A stretch of 64,000 nt of DNA. Source: an uncultured beta proteobacterium (lineage in GTDB: Bacteria; Pseudomonadota; Gammaproteobacteria; Burkholderiales; SG8-41). The translations under genes were made by a program, and so were the position numbers. A model generated the notes under the pieces. It worked only from the letters and a program-made list of their open reading frames with translations. It was not told the DNA's origin and searched no databases. Positions 15,238 through 26,032 of this stretch are shown piece by piece (position 1 is the first letter of the stretch; every line of letters begins with the position of its first letter). The stretch spans positions 1 through 64,000 of the forward strand of contig CAISYC010000023.1 in assembly GCA_903889565.1 (NCBI GenBank), given 5' to 3'.

Positions 15238-17442
15238 ATGAGCAAAATGTTCGCCTCACTGAGTATCAAGACCAAGGCGGCATTGATTGCCACAGTCGGT
15301 GTGCTGACGGTGTTTTTTGCATTTGCAACGATCGAGGCCGGGCAGATCCGGCGCGACATGCAGCAAGTGATCGGCCGGCAGCAGTTGACGCTGGTCAAGC
15401 GCATTGCCGCCGAATTCGACGACAAGATCGCAGTCACGCACCGCGCCTTGATCGCGACCGCCGCCGGCATTCCGCCAGCGCTGATCGATGATTCGCAGGC
15501 GCTGGCGCGCGCGCTCGAAAAGCAGCCGGGCTACCGTTCGCTGTTCGACGATGTGTTCGTGATCGGCCGCGACGGCCGAGTGCTGATCGAATTTCCGGAT
15601 CTGAAACGTCGCGGCATCGACGTGAGCGATCGCAACTATTTCCGCCGCACCATGGAGACCGCCGCACCGTTCATCTCTGAGCCCTATATGGGCCGCGGGC
15701 TGAAGGAGCCGACGGTCATGATGACCGCGCCGTTGCTCGACGCCAAGGGCCGGGTCGCCGGCATGCTGACCGGCGCGCTGCATCCGCTGAAGCCGAATTT
15801 GCTCGGGAGGATACGCGAAACGAGCGTAGGCGAGACCGGCTGGTTCGCCATGTTCACGCGCGAGCGCATGATTGTCGTGTCGCGCAGGGAATCGAGAATC
15901 ATGACGGCCGGACCGGCGCCCGGCATTTCGACTGCGTTCGATCACGCGATGACCGGCGAGGCGGGCTGGGAGGAGAGCACCAACAGCATGGGACTGCACG
16001 GCGTATTCAGCTATGCGCCGTTGCATGAGGTGCCGTGGGTCCTGTTTGCGGTGTTGCCGGCCGACGAGGCTTTCGCGCCGATCCGGCAGGCGCAGCGGCG
16101 GATTATCGGCAGCGGAATAGCACTCGCGGTGCTGATGGCGGTCGCCGTGTGGTTCCTGCTGCAACGTTTGCTGGCGCCGCTCGGCGTGTTGCGCGACACG
16201 ATACGCCGCGTCCAGCACGATCCAGCGGCGGCGACGCCGGTGCAAACGGTGCGCAGCGACGAAATCGGCGACCTCGCGAACGATTTCAACCGGATGATCG
16301 AAAGCCTGCACGAGCGCACGCGAAAACTGGATATCGAGAAATTGCGGCTGGAAGCGATATTCAGGACGGCCAGCGACGGCATCCATGTGCTCGACAGCGA
16401 CGGCCGTCTAATCGAGGCCAACGATGCGTTTCTCGGCATGCTCGGTTACGGCAAGGATGCGATCGGGCGCCTCTTCGTCACCGATTGGGATGCCAAGGAC
16501 GATCGCGCCGTGATCGTGCAGCGCAATGCGGCGCTGATGGAGACGCGCAAAACCGCCGTGTTCGAAACCGTGCATCGCCGCCGGGACGGCGCCCTGATTG
16601 ATGTCGAGATCAGCGCCTGCGGCATCGAAATCGAGGGCCGCATGTATTTGTATGCCTCGTCGCGCGACATTTCCGCGCGCAAACAGGCGCAGGCCGCGAT
16701 CGCAAAACTCAATGCCGAGCTTGAGATGCGGGTCGCGGCAAGAACCGCCGAGCTGCAGTCGGCGAACAAGGAACTCGATTCATTCTGCTATACGATCGCG
16801 CACGACATGCGCGCACCGGTGCGCGCGATCAACGGCTTCAGCGAAATGGTGCTCAAAGGCAGTGAGGAAAAGCTCGATTCGACCGCCGTCGGCTACCTGC
16901 GGCGAATCGGCGCCAGCGGGCGCCGCATGGGCGACCTGATCGACGATCTGCTCGGCATGGCGCGCCTGACGCGGCAGGAAATGCGCCGCGGCGAGGTCAA
17001 TCTGTCGGCGGCGGCGGAGCAGGTGGTGGCATCATTGCGGGCGGCGCATCCGGAGCGCAACGTGGCGGTGACGCTGCAGCCCGCGGTCTGCGTCAACGGC
17101 GACCCCGGTCTGCTGCGCGCCGTGCTCGAAAACCTCATTGGCAATGCCTGGAAATACACCGCCAAAACCGCCGCGCCAACGATTGAATTCGGCGCCGAAA
17201 ACCGCGTCGGGCGCCTGGTCATATTCGTGCGCGACAACGGTGCCGGCTTCGACATGCAGTACGTGCGCAAGCTGTTCGCGCCGTTCCAGCGTCTGCATCA
17301 TGAAAGCGAGTTCGAGGGCACCGGCATCGGACTGGCCACGGTCCGGCGCATTATCGAGCGCCACGGCGGCGAAATCTGGATCGACAGCGCGATTAACGCG
17401 GGAACCACGGTGTATTTTACGTTCGGCGCGGTGGTGGCCTGA
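15238..17442 (+). CDS. Membrane sensor histidine kinase (Cache-HAMP-PAS-HisKA-HATPase)
   Basis: About 734 residues. First membrane helix at about 12-32, a large extracytoplasmic dCache-like domain (about 35-280), second helix (IIGSGIALAVLMAVAVWFLL, near 290), HAMP (about 305-360), PAS (about 365-480), coiled coil, then HisKA with phospho-acceptor His522 in IAHDMRAPVRAI. The ATPase domain has the N box ENLIGNAWKYT, DNGAGFD, and G2 EGTGIGLATV. ATG at 15238 is used instead of the longer open frame from 15130, which adds an unlikely tail. No response regulator lies nearby. The last 26 bases overlap, tail to tail, the molybdenum hydroxylase gene. Kinase module is almost a copy of those at 26693 and 29324. 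Confidence 0.9.
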   Translation: MSKMFASLSIKTKAALIATVGVLTVFFAFATIEAGQIRRDMQQVIGRQQLTLVKRIAAEFDDKIAVTHRALIATAAGIPPALIDDSQALARALEKQPGYRSLFDDVFVIGRDGRVLIEFPDLKRRGIDVSDRNYFRRTMETAAPFISEPYMGRGLKEPTVMMTAPLLDAKGRVAGMLTGALHPLKPNLLGRIRETSVGETGWFAMFTRERMIVVSRRESRIMTAGPAPGISTAFDHAMTGEAGWEESTNSMGLHGVFSYAPLHEVPWVLFAVLPADEAFAPIRQAQRRIIGSGIALAVLMAVAVWFLLQRLLAPLGVLRDTIRRVQHDPAAATPVQTVRSDEIGDLANDFNRMIESLHERTRKLDIEKLRLEAIFRTASDGIHVLDSDGRLIEANDAFLGMLGYGKDAIGRLFVTDWDAKDDRAVIVQRNAALMETRKTAVFETVHRRRDGALIDVEISACGIEIEGRMYLYASSRDISARKQAQAAIAKLNAELEMRVAARTAELQSANKELDSFCYTIAHDMRAPVRAINGFSEMVLKGSEEKLDSTAVGYLRRIGASGRRMGDLIDDLLGMARLTRQEMRRGEVNLSAAAEQVVASLRAAHPERNVAVTLQPAVCVNGDPGLLRAVLENLIGNAWKYTAKTAAPTIEFGAENRVGRLVIFVRDNGAGFDMQYVRKLFAPFQRLHHESEFEGTGIGLATVRRIIERHGGEIWIDSAINAGTTVYFTFGAVVA

Positions 17443-19735
17443 GCCTGCCGGCCAGCGCCGGATGCGATTCGCCCATCAACTGCCACACCCGCGCCGGCGT
17501 CAACGGCAGCGCAGTCGGTTCCGCACCCAGTGAAGACAATGCCGAGGCAATCGCATTGGCGATCACGCCGCCCACCGGAATGATGCCGCCTTCGCCCGCG
17601 CCCTTGGCGCCGAGCGGGCTCACCGGCGACGGATAATCTTCGAGCGCGATGGCGCGGATGTGCCGGTAGTCCTGCGCATTCGGCAGCAGGTAATCGGCAA
17701 GCGAACCGGTCAGCAACTGGGCGTCGCTGTCGTAACGCAATTGTTCGAGCAGGCTGGCGCCGAGGCCCTGCGTGATGGCGCCGAGCACCTGACCGTGCAG
17801 CGTGTGCGGATTGAGAATGCGGCCGACGTCCTCGACGGCCATGTAATCGATGACTTCGACCGCGCCGGTGCGCGCATCGACGGCAACGTGCGCGGCATGC
17901 GTGCCGTAGCTGTAGGTGCGTTTCGCATTGACGAACCTGCCTTCAACCGCGAAGCCATCGGGCGACAACTCGACCAGTGAGCGCGTTTTGCCCTGCGCGC
18001 GCACCAGCGTCAGTTCATCGGCGATCTCGACGTCGCTGGCCGCGCAGCCGAATTGCGCCGCCGCTGCCGCGCGGATCGCCTGCTTGAGATTGGTTGCTGC
18101 ATCGAGGATCGCCGAGCCGCCCATCACCGAGCCGCGTGAAGCCCACGAGCCGAAGCCCTCGCGCACATGCGTGGTCGAGCCGTGATGAATGCGGCGGATG
18201 CGCGCCATCGGCAGCCCCAGTGCTTCGGCGGCGATCTGGGTGAATACGGTTTCCAGACCCTGGCCGATCGCGGAAGAGCCGACATAGACATCGAGCAGGC
18301 CGTCGTTGGCGAGCACGATGCGCGCGTTTTCGCGCGGGCCGGTGGCGCCGCCCTCGACATAGCAGCCGACGCCGAGGCCGTGATAGCGGCCGTCGATCAG
18401 CTGTCCCTGCAGCGGCGCCTTTTCCTGCCAGCCGAATTCGGCGAGGCAGCGCGCGAAGGTCGCGCCATAGTCGCCGCTGTCGAACGCGCCGCCACTGTTG
18501 TATGGCAGCACGGTCGGCAGGTCGCAGGGAATCTCCGCCGGCGTCAGCAGATTGCGCCGGCGGAATTCGATGCGGTCGATGCCGAGTTCGCGCGCCGCGA
18601 TGTCGAACAGGCGCTCGCGGCAGAAGTCGGCTTCGAAGCGGCCGGGCCCGCGGTAGCTGCCGGCCGGCGTCTTGTTGGTCAGCACGATCGCCACTTCCAT
18701 CCGGATATGCGGAACGCGATACGGCCCCATGATCATCTGCGCGAGATTGCGCGGCGCAGTCACCGCGTTGGGGCGCAGATAGGCGCCGGCATTGCAGGCC
18801 GCATGGCCGCGCAGCGCAAGCAGCGTGCCGTCGCGCGCGCAGGCGATTTCGAGTTCGCACACGACTTCGCGCGCGTGGCTGGTGGCGGCGAAGTGCTCGC
18901 GGCGGTCCTCGATCCATTTCACCGGCCGCGCCAGCGCGCGCGCGGCGTGGGCGAGCAGAAAATCCTCCGGATAAAACTCGCCGCGCACGCCAAAGCCGCT
19001 GCCGGCGTCGTTTTCGACCACATCAATCGCGTCCTCCGGCAGGCCGAGCAATTTCGCCAGCAGCGCGCGAATCGAGAACGGTACTTTCATTGCGCCGTAG
19101 AGCGTGAGCCGGCCGTCGCGCCAGTCGGCGAGCAGGCCGCGCGTTTCGAGCGGCAGCGCGCTGTGCCGTTGCACGCTGAAGCGTTCGCGGCGCGTGTACG
19201 CGGCAGCACGAAACGCGGCATCGGCGTCGCCGCGCACGCCGGCGAGCGTCATTGCGTGATTGGTGGCGTACTGTTCGAACAGGAACGTGCTGCCGGCGAG
19301 AGCTTCAGCAGTGGCGACGACGGCGGGCAGCGTTTCGATCTCGATTTGAATTGCATTGGCGGCGTCCTCGGCCAGAGCCGCGCTGTCGGCGACGACCATG
19401 GCGACGGGTTCGCCGACATAACGCACTTTGTCATGCGCGATCACCGGCTGCACGAAACGGCCGAGTTCGGGCCGCGGTTCCATGCGCAGCGGGATGTGCG
19501 GCACGCCGGCGGCGAAGTCGGCGGCGCTGAACACCGCGTGCACGCCGGGCATGGTGCGCGCGGCCGTCGTATCCAGCGAAACAATGCGGCCATGCGCATG
19601 CGCGCTGCGGAACACGGCGGCGTGCAGCAGGCCCGCCGGCGCGAGATCATCGACATAACAGCCGCGCCCGGTGAGGAAGCGCGCATCCTCGATGCGTTCG
19701 ACCGGCCGACCGATGTGCGCGTGAGTGGTCGTCAT
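17417..19735 (-). CDS. Molybdenum hydroxylase large subunit (xanthine dehydrogenase/CoxL family)
   Basis: About 772 residues, full length for the molybdopterin-binding subunit of xanthine dehydrogenase, aldehyde oxidase and CO-dehydrogenase type enzymes. N-terminal GRPVERIEDARFLTGRG, a central GSYRGPGR substrate-loop motif and C-terminal GAKGAGEGG with the catalytic glutamate are all present. Start ATG at 19735 chosen over the open frame to 19774. It follows the FMN oxidase by 22 bases, and an amidohydrolase before that. The FAD and 2Fe-2S subunits that normally accompany it are not in the window. It probably hydroxylates an aromatic or heterocyclic substrate, if partners exist elsewhere. Confidence 0.9.
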   Translation of the reverse strand: MTTTHAHIGRPVERIEDARFLTGRGCYVDDLAPAGLLHAAVFRSAHAHGRIVSLDTTAARTMPGVHAVFSAADFAAGVPHIPLRMEPRPELGRFVQPVIAHDKVRYVGEPVAMVVADSAALAEDAANAIQIEIETLPAVVATAEALAGSTFLFEQYATNHAMTLAGVRGDADAAFRAAAYTRRERFSVQRHSALPLETRGLLADWRDGRLTLYGAMKVPFSIRALLAKLLGLPEDAIDVVENDAGSGFGVRGEFYPEDFLLAHAARALARPVKWIEDRREHFAATSHAREVVCELEIACARDGTLLALRGHAACNAGAYLRPNAVTAPRNLAQMIMGPYRVPHIRMEVAIVLTNKTPAGSYRGPGRFEADFCRERLFDIAARELGIDRIEFRRRNLLTPAEIPCDLPTVLPYNSGGAFDSGDYGATFARCLAEFGWQEKAPLQGQLIDGRYHGLGVGCYVEGGATGPRENARIVLANDGLLDVYVGSSAIGQGLETVFTQIAAEALGLPMARIRRIHHGSTTHVREGFGSWASRGSVMGGSAILDAATNLKQAIRAAAAAQFGCAASDVEIADELTLVRAQGKTRSLVELSPDGFAVEGRFVNAKRTYSYGTHAAHVAVDARTGAVEVIDYMAVEDVGRILNPHTLHGQVLGAITQGLGASLLEQLRYDSDAQLLTGSLADYLLPNAQDYRHIRAIALEDYPSPVSPLGAKGAGEGGIIPVGGVIANAIASALSSLGAEPTALPLTPARVWQLMGESHPALAGRLRPPPRRT

Positions 19736-19757
19736 CGAATCGCCGGTGCCGGCGGGT

Positions 19758-20945
19758 TCAGGCCGAGGCTGCAATCGTCAGCGGAGCGGGCAGCGCCAGC
19801 AGCGCGCGATTGAGTTCGGCGATGCTGCGGCAGCCGATCAGCGCCATCACGCGGTCGATTTCTTCGCGCAGAATGGCGAGGGCGCGCGTCCCGCCCGGCT
19901 CGCCGGCGGCGGCCACGCCGTAGAGCGTGGCGCGGCCGATGAGCACCGCGTGCGCGCCGAGTGCCATCGCCTTGACGATGTCGCTGCCGCGCCGGAAACC
20001 CGAATCGACGATCACCGTCATGCGCTTGCCGACGGCATCCAGCATCAACGGCAGCGCATCGATCGGCGCAATCGCGCCGTCGATCACGCGGCCGCCGTGA
20101 TTGGACACGATCACGCCGTCGACGCCGCAATCGGCCGCCATCGCCGCGTCGGCCGGATTGAGCACGCCCTTGATCATCAAGGTGCGCGGCCACAGCTTGC
20201 GCATTTCGCGGATGTCGTCCCAGTCGAGCGCATCGTTGAGTTTCATCGCGCGGCCCATCGGCGCGGCCTTCACGCGCGCCTTGACCTCGGGCGGATAGTT
20301 TTCGAACAGCGGCAGGCCGCCCTCAACGAGATAGCGCAGCCACACGTTGATCATCCAGCGCGGATGACTGAGCACGTCGGCGATATTGCGCGGCGTGTAG
20401 GTCATCGGGATGGTGAAGCCGTTGCGCAGGTTGTATTCGCGGTTCGAAAACGTCGGGCTGTCCACCGTGATGATGAGCGCTTCGTAGCCGGCATTCTTCG
20501 CGCGTTCGGCGATCCAGCGCGACAGCGCGCGGTCGGCGTACATATAGAGCTGGAACCACAGCCGGCCGCCGACTTCATCGACGATGCGCTCCATCGCGGT
20601 CAGCGTGGTGGTCGCCAGCGTGAACGGGATGCCGGCTTGTTTGGCGGCGCGCGCGAGCGCAAGCTCGCCCTCGTACCACATGATGCCCGGCGTGCCGGTC
20701 GGCGCGATGGCGACCGGCATGTCCTGCTGGTGTCCGAACAGCGTGATCGACTGCTCGCGTTTTGAAACATCGTTGAGCACGCGCGGCTTCAGCTTGATGC
20801 GTTCGAACACGCTGCGGTTGTTGCGCAGCGACACTTCGTCTTCGCAGCCGCGGTCCATGAACTCGAAGAGTCCGCGCGGCAGGCGCTTGCGCGCCAGGTC
20901 GCGCAGGTCGGCGATGTTGTACGCGCCGAGCGTGGTGTCCGTCAT
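19758..20945 (-). CDS. FMN-dependent alpha-hydroxy-acid oxidase/dehydrogenase
   Basis: 395 residues, the standard size of the L-lactate dehydrogenase/mandelate dehydrogenase/glycolate oxidase family. The FMN-site lysine (Lys259, in LMIKGV), the catalytic His283 in SNHGGR with Arg286, and the late VDSGFRRGSDIVKAMALGA stretch are all intact, along with VDSPTFSNREYNLRNGF. ATG at 20945 lies 2 bases after the amidohydrolase stop, so they are translationally coupled; the open frame upstream to 21476 is that gene's shadow. Cytoplasmic, oxidises a 2-hydroxy acid to the 2-oxo acid. Together with the amidohydrolase and molybdenum subunit it suggests a degradation route for an aromatic hydroxy acid; substrate inferred only. 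Confidence 0.9.
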   Translation of the reverse strand: MTDTTLGAYNIADLRDLARKRLPRGLFEFMDRGCEDEVSLRNNRSVFERIKLKPRVLNDVSKREQSITLFGHQQDMPVAIAPTGTPGIMWYEGELALARAAKQAGIPFTLATTTLTAMERIVDEVGGRLWFQLYMYADRALSRWIAERAKNAGYEALIITVDSPTFSNREYNLRNGFTIPMTYTPRNIADVLSHPRWMINVWLRYLVEGGLPLFENYPPEVKARVKAAPMGRAMKLNDALDWDDIREMRKLWPRTLMIKGVLNPADAAMAADCGVDGVIVSNHGGRVIDGAIAPIDALPLMLDAVGKRMTVIVDSGFRRGSDIVKAMALGAHAVLIGRATLYGVAAAGEPGGTRALAILREEIDRVMALIGCRSIAELNRALLALPAPLTIAASA

Positions 20946-20947
20946 GT

Positions 20948-22036
20948 TCAGAGCCTGATGTTGAGCAGCCGGGCCGCGGTGGTGCTCAGAATCGAAATTC
21001 TGTCGGCGTCGCTGAGCCCCGGCGTGCCGAGCACGTGATCGATCGCTTCCTCGGCCCACGGGATCGGGTGATCGGTGCCGATCACCAATTGGCTGACGCC
21101 GACGTTGTTGATCAGGTGCTGCAGCATTTCCGGCGTGAACACCAGGGTGTCGAAGTAGAGCTGGCGCAGGTATTCGGTCGGCTTCTTTTTCAGCTTGATG
21201 TCCGGATTGCAGTTTGCCGGCGAAACGAAGCAGGCGTGGTCCGAGCGCGGCGCGTACGACGGCAGGTAGCCGCCGCCGTGCGCGGCGCAGACCTTGAGGC
21301 CGGGGAATTTGTCGAGCGTGCCCTCGTAGATCAGGTGCGACAGCGCGATGGTGGTGTCGAGCGGATTGCCGATGGTGTTGGCGAGCCAGCCGCTGCCTTT
21401 GAAGCGCTTGTTCAGTTCCGGCGTGCTTTGCGGGTGGATGAACAGCGGCACGCCGAGTTCCTCGGCCTTGGCCCACACCGGATGGAATTTGGCGTCCGAA
21501 AATTCCTCGCCGGCGACCGAGCCGCCGATTGCAGCGCCGCGCAGGTTGTATTTCTTCACCGCGGTTTCAAGCTGTTGCACCGCCAGATCCGGGTACTGCA
21601 GCGCCAGCGAGGCGAAGGCGACGAAACGGTCCGGACGCGCGGCGCAGATTTCGGCGAGCTTTTCGTTCTGCAGCCGGATCACCTTGCTGACCAGATCGCG
21701 GTCGAGTTTGTACCACGACGGATTGATGCTGAGCGCTTCGACGTCGATGCCCTGCGCATCCATCGCGCCCAGGCGCTCCTCGAACACGAGCACGTTCTGC
21801 GGCTGGCCTTTGACCTCGCCGGTCTGCTTCTGGCCCATCAGGTCCATCGCCTCGGGGATCACGCAGTGCGAATGAATGTCGATGGTTTTGATGCGGCGCC
21901 CGCCGATCATTACCTCGCGGCGTTTGACCGGCGCTTTCGTTTGCGCGTGCGCGGCATCGAGCAGCGGGCAGCCGGTGAACAGAATGCCGGCAGTGGCGCC
22001 GGCTGTGGTTTTCAGAAATTGCCTGCGGCTGTTCAT
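20948..22036 (-). CDS. Tat-exported amidohydrolase (ACMSD-like)
   Basis: 362 residues. A twin-arginine signal (SRRQFLKTTAG) is followed by a TIM-barrel amidohydrolase-2 domain similar to 2-amino-3-carboxymuconate semialdehyde decarboxylase. Metal ligands are visible: His55 and His57 in IDIHSHC, a His in LFIHPQ, a His in AAHGGGY, and the Asp in IGTDHPIPW. Ribosome site GGAGGAG precedes the ATG. It is the first gene of a three-gene minus-strand unit with the FMN oxidase and the molybdenum subunit. A close paralogue without signal peptide is at 55561. Probably a non-oxidative decarboxylase or hydrolase acting outside the cytoplasm. Confidence 0.88.
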   Translation of the reverse strand: MNSRRQFLKTTAGATAGILFTGCPLLDAAHAQTKAPVKRREVMIGGRRIKTIDIHSHCVIPEAMDLMGQKQTGEVKGQPQNVLVFEERLGAMDAQGIDVEALSINPSWYKLDRDLVSKVIRLQNEKLAEICAARPDRFVAFASLALQYPDLAVQQLETAVKKYNLRGAAIGGSVAGEEFSDAKFHPVWAKAEELGVPLFIHPQSTPELNKRFKGSGWLANTIGNPLDTTIALSHLIYEGTLDKFPGLKVCAAHGGGYLPSYAPRSDHACFVSPANCNPDIKLKKKPTEYLRQLYFDTLVFTPEMLQHLINNVGVSQLVIGTDHPIPWAEEAIDHVLGTPGLSDADRISILSTTAARLLNIRL

Positions 22037-22196
22037 GCGCGTCTCCTCCGTTTGCGGGGTGTGGGTGACGCGGCGAGTTATTGGACAATCCGGCGCCGTC
22101 GTCGAGGGCCGATTATGGCATGCAGCCGGCGTGCCGCAAGCAGCCGGCGGCGGTGCGGTTTATGATGTGCTCTCAATCCACTGCGGAGCAGACGAC

Positions 22197-23156
22197 GTGA
22201 AGCGATTGCACCGGGCGCTGATGTGCGCATTTATCGCGCCGCTGTCGGCGCTGGCGCAGCCCTATCCGGCGAAGCCCGTGCGCATGATCGTCGGCTTCGC
22301 GCCCGGCGGCGGCACCGATGTCACCGCGCGCGTTATCGTGCAGGCGCTGTCCGACGGACTCGGTCAGCGCGTGGTGATCGACAACCGGCCCGGCGCCAAC
22401 GGCGTGCTCGGCAGCGAACTCGCGGCGAGGGCGCCGGCAGATGGTTATACCGTGCTGATGGTGAATTCGGGGCACACGGTGAATCCCGGCATGTACCAGA
22501 AGCTGCCCTACGACACGCTGCGCGATTTCGCGCCGGTCAGTCTGGTGATGACCATCGCCAACCTGCTGGTGATTCATCCGTCGCTGCCGGTCAAGTCGGT
22601 GCCGGAATTCGTGCGGCTGGCACGCGCAAAGCCCGGGGCGATCAACTACGGTTCCGGCGGTCACGGCGCGAGTTCGCACCTGGCGATGGAATTGTTCAAG
22701 CGCACGGCGAAAATCGATCTCGTGCACGTGCCGTACAAAAGCGGCGGTGTATCGGCCGCCGCGCTGCTCGCCGGCGAGGTGGCGGTGTCGTTCAACACCA
22801 TTCCGTCGGCGCTCTCCTACGTCAGGGCGGGACGTTTGCGCGCGATCGGCGTGTCGAGCCTTGCGCGTTCGATCAGCGTGCCGGAGGTGCCGACCATCGC
22901 CGAGCAGGGTTACGCGGGATTTTCGGCGAGCGGTCTCGCGGGGCTCGTCGCGCCGGCCGGCACGCCCGCGGAGGCGATCAACCGGCTGCATGCCGAGGTG
23001 GTAAAGCTGCTCAAGCAGCCGAAGGTGATTGAGCAATGCCTCACGCTGGGGCTCGATCCGGTCGGCGATACGCCGGCGGAATTCGCGCAATTCATCCGCG
23101 CCGACATGGAGAAGTGGACGAGACTGACGCGCGAACTTCAGCTGAAGATGGAATAA
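22197..23156 (+). CDS. TTT-family (Bug) solute receptor, upstream of the UGSC selenoprotein
   Basis: 319 residues starting at GTG 22197 with GGAG upstream, signal peptide KRLHRALMCAFIAPLSALAQ, then PYPAKPVRMIVGFAPGGGTDVTAR, DNRPGANGVLGSEL and APADGYTV. The longer open frame from 21876 is read-through of the divergent amidohydrolase gene. Stop TAA at 23154-23156 is 30 bases before the selenoprotein start and no terminator lies between, so the two are probably one transcript. If so, the receptor's ligand, or its derivative, may be the substrate of the UGSC protein; this is inference only. Confidence 0.9.
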   Translation: MKRLHRALMCAFIAPLSALAQPYPAKPVRMIVGFAPGGGTDVTARVIVQALSDGLGQRVVIDNRPGANGVLGSELAARAPADGYTVLMVNSGHTVNPGMYQKLPYDTLRDFAPVSLVMTIANLLVIHPSLPVKSVPEFVRLARAKPGAINYGSGGHGASSHLAMELFKRTAKIDLVHVPYKSGGVSAAALLAGEVAVSFNTIPSALSYVRAGRLRAIGVSSLARSISVPEVPTIAEQGYAGFSASGLAGLVAPAGTPAEAINRLHAEVVKLLKQPKVIEQCLTLGLDPVGDTPAEFAQFIRADMEKWTRLTRELQLKME

Positions 23157-23186
23157 TCGCCGCTGCGGCGAACGGGGGGAGGCGGC

Positions 23187-24887
23187 ATGGAAAAAATTTC
23201 AGTGGTCAGTCCTGTCGGTATCGAGGTGGTCACGCGCCGCGGCATCTCGCCGCGCGTTGCGGACCTCAACGGCAAAACGGTGGCCGAGGTGTGGAACGGC
23301 GTGTTCAAGGGCGATCAGACTTTTCCGGTGATCCGCCGCGTGCTGACGCAACGCTTTCCGTCGATCCAAATCATTCCGTATACGGCGTTTCCGCACATGC
23401 CCGGCGGCGACAATCCGCGCGAGCAGCGCGAACGCGCGCGGCTGGTGGCGAAAACCGCGCAGGAAAAGGGCGTTCACGTGCTGATCTCAGGCAACGGCGC
23501 CTGAGGCAACTGCGCACCGGCCGCGGCGCGGCCGGCGACTGAGGCGGAAAAAGCGGGCATCGCCACCGTGGTGGTGACCTCCACCGGCTTTTCATTGCAG
23601 GCGCGCCTGACCGGCAAGGCCGGCGGCATCGAAGATCTGCGCATTGCCGAGTATCCGGGCCCGCTGGGCATCCACAGCGCGGACGAAATCGAGCGCAATG
23701 TCGAAACCACCCTGATCGACCGCATCATCGATGGCCTCACGCGCGCCGCCGACGGCGCCGCTGCCACGCAATCTGGCGGCCGCGATCCGCGCGCCGCGGT
23801 GTTCAGCGGCACGCCGGAGGAGATCAACCGTCATTTCATCGCGCAGGAATGGAGCGACGGCCTGCCGGTGCTGCCGCCGACGGTTGAACGCGTCGAACGC
23901 TTTTTGCAATTCAGCGATCGCGCGGCCGACGCCGGGATCGCGGTGATGCCCGGCGCCAATCTGCGCGCCACGCCGTGGACCATTGCGGTCAACGCGGTGA
24001 TGGCCGGCTGCGAACCGGCGCATCTGCCGATCCTGATCGCGGCGGTCGAGGCGCTGGCCGACGAGCGCTGCAAGCTCGCCAGCATCGGCACGTCCTCGGG
24101 CAGCTTTCCGTTCATGCTGATCAACGGGCCCATCGTCAAACAGCTCGGTATCGCCAGCGATGCGCAGCTCGTTTCGCGCGGGCCCAATCCGGCGCTCGGC
24201 CGCGCGCTCGGTCTGATCGTGCGCAACATCGGCGGCTTCCGGCCCGGCGCGACTTATATGGGCACCTTCGGTTATCCGCTTGCCTTCGCGCTCGCCGAAA
24301 GCGAAGACGCAAGTCCGTGGGCGCCGTTTCAGGTCGATCAGGGCTTCAGCCGCGAGGACAGCACGGTCACCATCGGCGTGACCAATAATTTCGGTCCCGC
24401 GCCGGCGCCGTACGACACTGCCGACAAAGCCGGCGCGCAGACCGCGATCGAATTGCTGGCGAAGGAGATCACCAGGAAGACGCGGTTGTTCAACTATCCG
24501 GGCCGCGGACCCGGCGCGGAAGAGGTGATGATCACGCTGCTGATTTCGCCATCGGTGGCGAAGTCGCTGGCCGACGCCGGTTATACGAAGGACGACGTGC
24601 GGCGCCTCGTCTTTGAGCACTGCACCATGCGGCTCGGCGATTTCGAATGGGTGTTCAAATATACGACTGTGATGCGCATGTCGCTCAGAGAGCGCGTCGA
24701 GGAGGGCGTGCTGCCGCCGGAATTTCTCGGCGAGCCCGACGACATCGTGCGCGTGCTGTCGAGCCCTGACATTCTGCATATCGTGGTCTGCGGCGATCCG
24801 CACCGCAACCGCGTTATGGTGCTCGAAGGCGGCCATACGCTGCCGACCACCAAAAAAATACGCCCGCCGGCGAACCGGCAGGCGTAG
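23187..24887 (+). CDS. UGSC-family selenoprotein fused to a second domain (in-frame TGA read as Sec)
   Basis: One reading frame of 567 codons interrupted only by TGA at 23502-23504. Residues 1-105 are the UGSC-family N-terminus (HVLISGNGA just before the TGA); the TGA is followed by GNCAP, giving U-G-N-C at Sec106-Cys109, then AEKAGIATVVVTSTGF, again typical of the family. A bacterial SECIS hairpin follows (23517-23535). Residues from about 206 form a second domain (FIAQEWSDGLPVLPPTVERV, VMAGCEPAHLPI, LINGPIVKQLGI). Without recoding this would be two broken genes. Function is unknown; the Sec/Cys pair suggests redox or nucleophilic chemistry. Start ATG 23187 follows GGGGAGG. Co-transcribed with the receptor at 22197. 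The stop TAG lies inside a terminator hairpin. Confidence 0.9.
23502..23535 (+). promoter_or_regulatory. Bacterial SECIS element of the UGSC gene
   Basis: TGA (23502-23504) is followed by a perfect 8-bp stem, CCGGCCGC (23517-23524) with GCGGCCGG (23528-23535), closed by a GGC loop (23525-23527). Twenty bases separate the TGA from the loop, within the range accepted for bacterial SECIS elements, and the loop starts with G as required for SelB binding. The stem is also coding sequence, so it directs Sec insertion inside the reading frame. Confidence 0.85.
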
Positions 24888-24939: not shown

Positions 24940-25830
24940 CTAGGCTTTTACGTGCTTGGCGAAAAATGCCAGCGTGCGCTGCCACGCCAGTTTCGCCGCC
25001 GCTTCGTCGTAGCGCGGCGTGGTGTCGTTGTTGAAGCCGTGATTGACGTTCGGATAGATGTAGGCTTCGTACGACTTGTTGTTGGCCTTCAGCGCCGCTT
25101 CGAATGCCGGCCAGCCGGCATTGATGCGGTCGTCGAGTCCGGCGTAATGAATCTGCAGCGGCGCCTTGATTTTCGGCACGTCCGCCGCCGCCGGCTGCGC
25201 GCCGTAGAACGGCACCGAGGCCAGCAGATCGGGCATGCGCACGGCGAAAATATTACAGATGCCGCCGCCGAAACAGAAGCCGACGGTGCCGAGGCGGCCG
25301 TTCGATTCGGCGTGCGTCTTCACGTATTCGGCGCCGGCGGTCAGATCTTCGAGCCGTTTTGCCGGATCCAGCGTGCCGAACAGCTGCACGGCCTTTTCTT
25401 CGTCGCCCGGATAGCCGCCGAGCGGCGTCAGCGCATCGGGCGCGAAGGCGAGGTAACCTTCGAGCGCGAGGCGGCGCGCGATGTCTTCGATATGCGGATT
25501 GAGGCCGCGGTTTTCGTGAATGACGACGATGGCCGGCAGTTTGCCCGCCGCCTTGGCCGGCCGCGCGAGGTAGCCCTTGACGGTGCCGTTGCCCTTCGGC
25601 GAAGCGTATTCGACGGTTTCGGTCTTCAGGCGCGGATCGTTCTTGGCGACCTGCTGCGCCATCGCGTAATTCGGGCGCAAGGCCTCGAGCATGGCGGCGG
25701 CAGAGAAGCCGCCCACCGCATACTTGGCCGCGCCGTCGATGAATTCGCGGCGGTCGAGCATGCCGTGCACATAACCATCAAACAGTTTCAATACTTCCTG
25801 GGGAAAATCACTCGCCTTGAGCCGTTCCAT
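24940..25830 (-). CDS. Dienelactone hydrolase family protein
   Basis: About 296 residues. Alpha/beta-hydrolase of the dienelactone hydrolase type with the Cys nucleophile in GFCFGGG (Cys186), the acid in AGLDDRIN (Asp233 or 234) and the base in NVNHGFNN (His264). Residues 27-50 (DRREFIDGAAKYAVGGFSAAA) look like an internal twin-arginine-type segment, as seen in exported members. ATG at 25830 with GGAGG upstream is preferred over the open frame to 25890. Hydrolyses a lactone or ester, likely in aromatic or chloroaromatic breakdown. Single-gene unit, convergent with the selenoprotein gene and divergent from the exonuclease gene. Confidence 0.88.
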   Translation of the reverse strand: MERLKASDFPQEVLKLFDGYVHGMLDRREFIDGAAKYAVGGFSAAAMLEALRPNYAMAQQVAKNDPRLKTETVEYASPKGNGTVKGYLARPAKAAGKLPAIVVIHENRGLNPHIEDIARRLALEGYLAFAPDALTPLGGYPGDEEKAVQLFGTLDPAKRLEDLTAGAEYVKTHAESNGRLGTVGFCFGGGICNIFAVRMPDLLASVPFYGAQPAAADVPKIKAPLQIHYAGLDDRINAGWPAFEAALKANNKSYEAYIYPNVNHGFNNDTTPRYDEAAAKLAWQRTLAFFAKHVKA

Positions 25831-26032
25831 CGTCGCGCCTCCTGCGGGGTTGGGGAGGCGGAATGGTAAATCGAAATCCGCCGCCGGCATAGCCTGCGCG
25901 CGGATGGCCGGCGGTTCCGCGCGGCCGGCTTTCGTGCGAGACTGTTTGCGGGCCCGGGGTCAAGTTCCGGTGCCATGCAGCCGTTGTTACGTCAGTCGCA
26001 TTTTTTTGACATTTCGCCCCCGGGTCAGCCGC

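Follow-up and report, generated by a model that had tools for sequence, protein, structure and literature searches.

An in-frame TGA within a UGSC-family gene of an uncultured Burkholderiales bacterium, and the remote relation of its product to selenoprotein B and PrdB

The 64,000-nucleotide stretch of DNA analysed here (the window; positions 1 to 64,000 of contig CAISYC010000023.1 in assembly GCA_903889565.1, from an uncultured Burkholderiales bacterium) contains on its forward strand two abutting open reading frames (ORFs) separated by a single TGA codon, which raises the question of whether this codon terminates translation or specifies selenocysteine (Sec, U) and, in the latter case, what the resulting protein might do. 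An initial annotation had read the two frames as one gene of the UGSC family of selenoproteins. The codons of relatives and the Sec machinery of the genome indicate that the TGA (23502-23504, forward strand) is almost certainly a Sec codon, at residue 106 in a U-G-N-C motif. The ugsc gene (23187-24887, forward strand) would thereby encode a 566-residue selenoprotein with a UGSC domain and a C-terminal domain of unknown family, as read from the translation with TGA as U, the Pfam match to UGSC at residues 6-185 and full-length relatives, and the likeliest role of this protein is the Sec-dependent reduction of organic compounds that the cell imports.

The UGSC family and its fused form are already known. 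In the available text of the respective reports, UGSC ranks with the more abundant selenoprotein families in aquatic metagenomes, being represented by 255 Sec genes (PMC2398784), its share in aquatic metagenomes is given as 8.2% (PMC9402790), its fusion to a conserved domain of unknown function has been published since 2008 (PMC2398784) and a 2026 review counts it among selenoproteins whose functions are largely uncharacterised (PMC13188914). Passages of the literature available in part also suggest a thioredoxin-like fold for UGSC and describe UGSC selenoproteins with UAG as the Sec codon in Geodermatophilaceae. Within the accessible parts of the UGSC literature, a set without subscription papers and preprints, there is no mention of a relation to PrdB/GrdB, of a thioredoxin reductase (TrxR) partner or of Burkholderiales with tens of copies. 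Literature searches directed at these points in the same set turned up no paper recognised as dealing with them. Beyond the initial annotation, the analysis brought out the fused second domain, the numerous paralogues, a relation to glycine and D-proline reductases and the gene neighbourhood.

Reading of the in-frame TGA

The upstream part of the frame (23187-23501) begins with ATG and contains no stop, and it is preceded by a purine-rich ribosome-binding-like stretch, GGGGGGAGG (23174-23182, forward strand), lying 4 nt 5' of the ATG. The downstream part (23505-24884) comprises 460 open codons followed by TAG at 24885-24887; a mechanical ORF call starts it at the GTG at 23568, yet the frame is already open from 23505. 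When the TGA is translated as one residue, a single 566-residue protein containing GA-U-G-N-C, with U106 and C109, is obtained, and the proposals that the two frames form one protein if TGA is Sec, that the TGA lies within the U-G-x-C motif of the family and that no further in-frame stop occurs over 460 codons were all borne out by translation. The family assignment, too, was right: Pfam UGSC (PF24696) matches residues 6-185 with 75.3 bits against a cut-off of 25 (E 8.3e-21), hence family sequence lies on either side of the TGA as had been claimed, and at E 0.01 NF041046 is matched by every one of the 74 aligned relatives. The protein itself scores 47.2 bits and does not reach the cut-off of 125 of the NF041046 UGSC equivalog model, and because of this shortfall it is classed, by profile score, as a divergent UGSC family member.

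The initial annotation had proposed inspection of the homologues at this codon and a search for the Sec machinery, and both turned out in its favour. At residue 106, 80 outside relatives, which are the best 80 loci of a longer match list obtained by scanning contigs with a 13-paralogue alignment, have TGA (57), TGC (19) or TGT (4), with no other stop or residue, and every one of the 57 TGA rows has exactly one stop across the aligned segment. A true stop or a sequencing error would not be expected to exchange with Cys codons alone, and this codon table (57 TGA, 23 Cys) rules out a stop codon, a pseudogene and a sequencing error as explanations. After removal by hand of four partial or over-long loci (L140, L162, L175 and L176) and failure of two more in the frame check (L100 and L142), 74 outside loci were left, from which 12 redundant ones were dropped, so that the final 74-protein alignment consists of 62 outside proteins, 11 from the own genome and the window protein. 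On the tree of these 74 proteins (60 Sec, 14 Cys), built with the trait column and its adjacent columns masked, the Sec/Cys state changes at least four times.

Two of the Cys forms belong to named strains, Novosphingobium flavum and Nocardioides sediminis. Sequences from Bacteroidota, Verrucomicrobiota, Bacillota and others (L125, L132, L138, L150, L168, L172 and similar) form a Cys-type clade of their own, in which the motif resembles CGLCTPKETGSC. Among named records, those closest to the genes of this genome come for the most part from metagenome bins of Burkholderiales or Betaproteobacteria. Some records that bear the name Chitinophaga pinensis or Bordetella parapertussis (L112, L111, L127, L129, L147, L157 and L173) group with the genes of the Burkholderiales genome, and these labels look wrong.

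The genome (5.04 Mb in 74 contigs, 99.7% complete, contamination 3.9) encodes selA, selB, selD and tRNA-Sec, each above its cut-off, with one tRNA-Sec over the gathering score at 75.5 bits, and we infer that UGA is decoded as Sec in the cell. SelD is likely itself a selenoprotein, because its gene (L097, G000:C64:1542-2465) has an in-frame TGA at GGGUGCK.

A candidate Sec insertion sequence (SECIS)-like hairpin lies just downstream of the TGA (23517-23535, forward strand), with an 8-bp stem (23517-23524/23528-23535) and the loop GGC (23525-23527) located 20 nt after the TGA, as suggested by folding, covariation and a group test. When the stability of the 45 bases after the codon is expressed as a z-score against synonymous-codon reshuffles, the mean z is -1.30 for 21 own TGA genes and -1.45 for 57 TGA relatives, as compared with -0.06 for 23 Cys relatives (78 TGA vs 23 Cys, Mann-Whitney p 1.6e-6), and values below 0 were observed in 18 of 21, 54 of 57 and 11 of 23, respectively. 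In a register in which the loop starts ~20 bases from the U of UGA, the best of 90 tried and picked on the TGA set, ~73% of cells are paired in TGA genes and ~30-34% in Cys genes. The hairpin of the window aligned with four near relatives has 40 of 40 cells paired, and in two of the eight pairs both partners have changed. Its covariation score together with the paired percentage is attained by 7 of 500 shuffles, and the number of doubly changed pairs by 63 of 500. Telling against a SECIS function are the three own-genome TGA genes with a hairpin z above 0 and the z of the window's own hairpin, just -0.40 and thus barely stabler than reshuffles, for which reason this hairpin alone is no proof of a SECIS. 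Rfam, at gathering thresholds, gave no match in the window.

Domain structure and relation to selenoprotein B and PrdB

Prediction of the whole protein with the 74-sequence alignment is confident, with a predicted local distance difference test score (pLDDT) of 92.9 and a predicted template modelling score (pTM) of 0.93. The UGSC domain (approximately residues 6-185; 23202-23741, forward strand), delimited by Pfam and predicted structure, is modelled as strands that alternate with helices, and Sec immediately precedes a helix, residue 106 lying between strand 98-104 and helix 109-122. The C-terminal domain (residues 200-566; 23784-24884, forward strand), when predicted alone, gave a pLDDT of 91.4 and a pTM of 0.92 and contains fully or almost fully conserved residues in the stretches WxDGxPxxPPT and MAGCxPE. 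The UGSC domain occurs either fused to this second domain or alone, near a separate gene for it.

The model of the C-terminal domain found no PDB chain with E<=0.001, and its assignment as a class I fumarase or a cyclic amide hydrolase was rejected since the Foldseek matches are too weak (TMq <=0.25). FtsZ, which heads the best Foldseek rows for the whole model, was set aside, as a root-mean-square deviation of about 19 has little meaning. A thioredoxin fold is not favoured, as strands and helices alternate and no thioredoxin is found among the best 50 of 1524 PDB matches. Sequence searches of the PDB returned nothing useful (E 0.15; ClpB and others E 0.086 or worse).

Profile searches pointed elsewhere. 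When the 74 proteins were scanned singly against 18,950 NCBIfam models at E 0.01, all 74 matched UGSC, and five selenoprotein-B/PrdB models were also matched: D-proline reductase PrdB by 26 proteins (best 3.3e-5), sarcosine GrdF by 13, glycine reductase selenoprotein B by seven, mixed selenoprotein B by seven and betaine GrdH by six; the only further match was one to ClpS. Of 349 genomes from the phylum, 12 contain PrdB-like proteins at E 1e-20, with 13 matches in all, none above the PrdB cut-off, and all eight of those taken for alignment contain C-P-x-C. Profile-profile comparison by hhalign aligned UGSC with these PrdB-like proteins at E 1.8e-5, placing U106 and C109 on both Cys residues of C-P-x-C, and the C-terminal domain alone found no match to the PrdB-like profile. 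One of the 13 PrdB-like matches has an in-frame TGA and reads U-P-V-C (L190, G237:C1:834660-835274, from another Pseudomonadota genome); because this TGA replaces the first Cys of C-P-x-C, Sec falls on Sec in the alignment. At the level of profiles, the UGSC domain is thus shown to be a remote homologue of selenoprotein B/PrdB with Sec at the same site, a link that is weak but specific.

Paralogues and gene neighbourhood

Pfam UGSC has 22 matches in this genome, of which 21 have exactly one in-frame TGA and one has none, and in all 21 the TGA corresponds to the U of the motif, which is U-G-x-C in 20 and U-G-T-S in one. In the latter (L045, G000:C58:73465-73968), Ser stands in place of the second Cys of the motif. 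In the TGA-less fused paralogue (L031:2086-3780, minus strand, G000:C5), Met-Gly-Ile-Cys replaces U-G-x-C; this gene may either lack Sec by nature or have decayed. The own paralogues are spread over different deep branches of the tree, several beside genes of other phyla, and because of this placement they are, as far as the tree tells, an old and diversified set and not a single recent burst.

When 100 genomes were searched (this one together with 99 relatives, at most 31 candidates being scored in each), 63 had UGSC matches: this genome, all 59 that belong to its genus or family and three of the 40 from other families of the order (G061, G064 and G071). Three genomes that were rerun gave 58 (G003), 40 (G040) and 35 (G055) matches. 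Among the 58 matches of G003, a congener, a hand count gives 51 whose only stop is a single TGA, three in which a TGA is accompanied by another stop and four that have none. Some of these matches are partial, two neighbouring ones on contig C7 seem to be pieces of a single broken gene, and strain mixture could inflate the number, as the bin has 330 contigs at 98% completeness and contamination 2. The paralogue number is striking, with 51 one-TGA matches of one family in a single genome bin; for the richest bacteria named in the accessible part of the 2026 review, the selenoprotein genes of all families taken together number 57 and 63 (PMC13188914).

Directly upstream of ugsc, ending 30 nt before its start, is a gene for a TctC (Bug) solute-binding protein (21876-23156, forward strand), identified by PF03401 at 22326-23141 and a local profile; its true start is probably further in than that of the listed ORF, since the 5' end of the ORF extends past the domain. 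Such genes abound in this 5.04-Mb genome, with 445 first-look candidates, and all 150 that were scored exceed 230 bits. A TctC gene is present in 19 of 22 UGSC windows vs 5 of 20 control windows (Fisher p 7e-5), a rough p as the controls were hand-picked on the same contigs, the UGSC windows span 3.9-7.0 kb and the controls 7.0 kb, and some UGSC windows overlap one another. For 45 own-genome neighbours, hand-chosen with TctC included on purpose, 20 of 45 is no unbiased count. TctC was found in 18 of the 80 outside loci. These loci yielded 187 neighbours, 111 of them on the same strand, of which 97 were scanned after exclusion of TctC genes; these 97 include SBP_bac_5 (14), Pyr_redox_2 (8), FGE-sulfatase (7) and dockerin (7).

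On contig C59 of the genome (L018), the minus strand carries, in this order, selA, selB, a TrxR-like gene and tRNA-Sec, followed by two or three ORFs resembling TctC and then by a UGSC gene of the fused type, and a second UGSC gene lies on the plus strand ~5 kb past the other side of selA. The TrxR-like gene matches TIGR01292 at E 1.9e-70, under the cut-off of the model. A first clustering of neighbours, in which unrelated and antisense ORFs were merged, merely suggested TrxR-like and SelB groups. With a threshold of 200 bits set by us, a TrxR-like gene is found in 13 of 80 outside loci, five more with 26-48 bits being taken as other flavoproteins. It lies within 100 bases of the UGSC gene on the same strand in L116, L131, L173 and L178, and beside selB with an adjoining selA in L109, L111 and L113.

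Other neighbours of ugsc in the window, all on the minus strand, are catabolic-looking genes for a dienelactone hydrolase (24940-25890) and, by our reading of the tally, an amidohydrolase (20948-22036) and a molybdenum hydroxylase subunit (17417-19774).

Proposed function and known systems

The ugsc product is probably a selenoprotein acting as a Sec-dependent, substrate-cleaving reductase with a GrdB/PrdB-like mechanism; such a way of working is the most likely because UGSC is a remote homologue of these proteins with Sec-x-x-Cys at the same place. In PrdB, according to the available part of the source, the proposed course is an attack of the selenolate on the alpha carbon of the pyruvoyl-held proline, followed by resolution through a Cys (PMC3091704). 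In the present case, UGA 23502-23504 would be decoded by SelA, SelB, SelC and SelD of the genome, aided by the hairpin just downstream, the selenolate would attack a substrate and bring about reductive cleavage of a C-X bond, Cys109 would resolve the selenide, and a TrxR-like flavoprotein could re-reduce the Se-S bond. The C-terminal domain, fused or as a separate partner, would probably bind the substrate, the neighbouring TctC solute-binding protein may help to bring it in, and the paralogues might serve as isoenzymes for different substrates. More tentatively, UGSC proteins may as a whole be unrecognised substrate-cleaving Sec reductases that work without a pyruvoyl subunit, in which the orphan C-terminal domain would bind the substrate and the TrxR-like protein of the selA-selB operon would feed the reaction, with ~20-50 isoenzymes in an uncultured Burkholderiales family, often beside solute-binding proteins; this broader proposal is considerably less secure than the assignment of the mechanism.

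Several results weigh against a GrdB/PrdB-like reductase. The hhalign probability is 78% for the whole protein and 51% for the N-terminal domain alone (E 2.3e-5), the window protein reaches 18.5 bits where the PrdB cut-off is 300, and Pfam gave no GRDB match in any of the 74 proteins at E 0.01. A search for the pyruvoyl subunit PF09338 gave no match in the genome, nor did it in the control genomes; the chemistry may therefore be no copy of that of D-proline reductase. A TrxR-like neighbour was found in only one of 20 own loci scanned, which for the most part had shorter flanks than the outside loci, and the 150 best TctC genes are not significantly near UGSC genes (p 0.13, 0.18 and 0.08 at 0.5, 1.5 and 3 kb).

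The best surviving alternative, which we consider unlikely, is a selenoprotein of ordinary thiol redox, resembling thioredoxin, peroxidase or disulfide reductase and cleaving no substrate, which the TrxR-like neighbour would fit equally well. However, the predicted strand/helix alternation with Sec at a helix start and the lack of thioredoxins among those best PDB matches speak against it, the profiles favour GrdB/PrdB, and 20-50 paralogues, partly beside solute-binding genes, suit catabolism better than housekeeping redox. Less probable again is that the protein belongs to the GrdB superfamily and contains Sec but carries out some other chemistry, such as isomerisation, thiol transfer or metal/metalloid handling; a C-terminal domain without a clear structural match and the failure to find a pyruvoyl partner would agree with it, but a TrxR-like partner and solute-binding neighbours are more simply explained by a reductive catabolic step. 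Readthrough of UGA as Trp, Cys or another ordinary residue can be given hardly any credence, for although the inserted residue is not readable from sequence alone, the Sec machinery is complete, the SECIS-like signal is seen in TGA genes and absent from Cys relatives, and exchange occurs with Cys codons only. Equally negligible is a true stop, which would leave a protein of 105 residues and, downstream, either a gene of its own or a dead remnant, as the open frame with its GTG at 23568 might suggest, given that 23 of 80 relatives have Cys codons instead of TGA and nothing else, and that 21 of 22 own UGSC matches carry TGA, all at the same motif.

The preferred reading of ugsc as a GrdB/PrdB-like reductase turns the relation to selenoprotein B/PrdB, the candidate reductase partner and the transporter neighbours into a testable guess at UGSC function, and, if the broader proposal on UGSC proteins is true, selenium would be central to the use of dissolved organic compounds by these bacteria. 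At the level of annotation, a gene finder for which TGA always ends a frame would break such genes in two.

As compared with known systems, the protein shares with the UGSC family (PF24696/NF041046) the domain, the Sec site, U-G-x-C and a score above the Pfam cut-off, and differs in falling below the NF041046 cut-off and in its second domain of ~370 residues, for which Pfam and NCBIfam scans, a stand-alone copy included, yielded no family. It resembles the UGSC/Unknown_1 fusion from the Global Ocean Sampling (PMC2398784) in joining UGSC to a conserved domain of unknown function, as far as the accessible text goes; Unknown_1 is known to us by that description only and is not equated with the C-terminal domain described here. 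From selenoprotein B/PrdB (TIGR04483, TIGR01917, TIGR01918, NF040794 and NF040795) the UGSC protein differs in lying far under the PrdB cut-off, in its extra C-terminal domain, in its many paralogues and in that no PF09338 pyruvoyl subunit was found with it in its genome (nor in the controls), whereas remote homology, the aligned Sec-x-x-Cys and, in some UGSC loci, a TrxR-type gene close by are what the two have in common.
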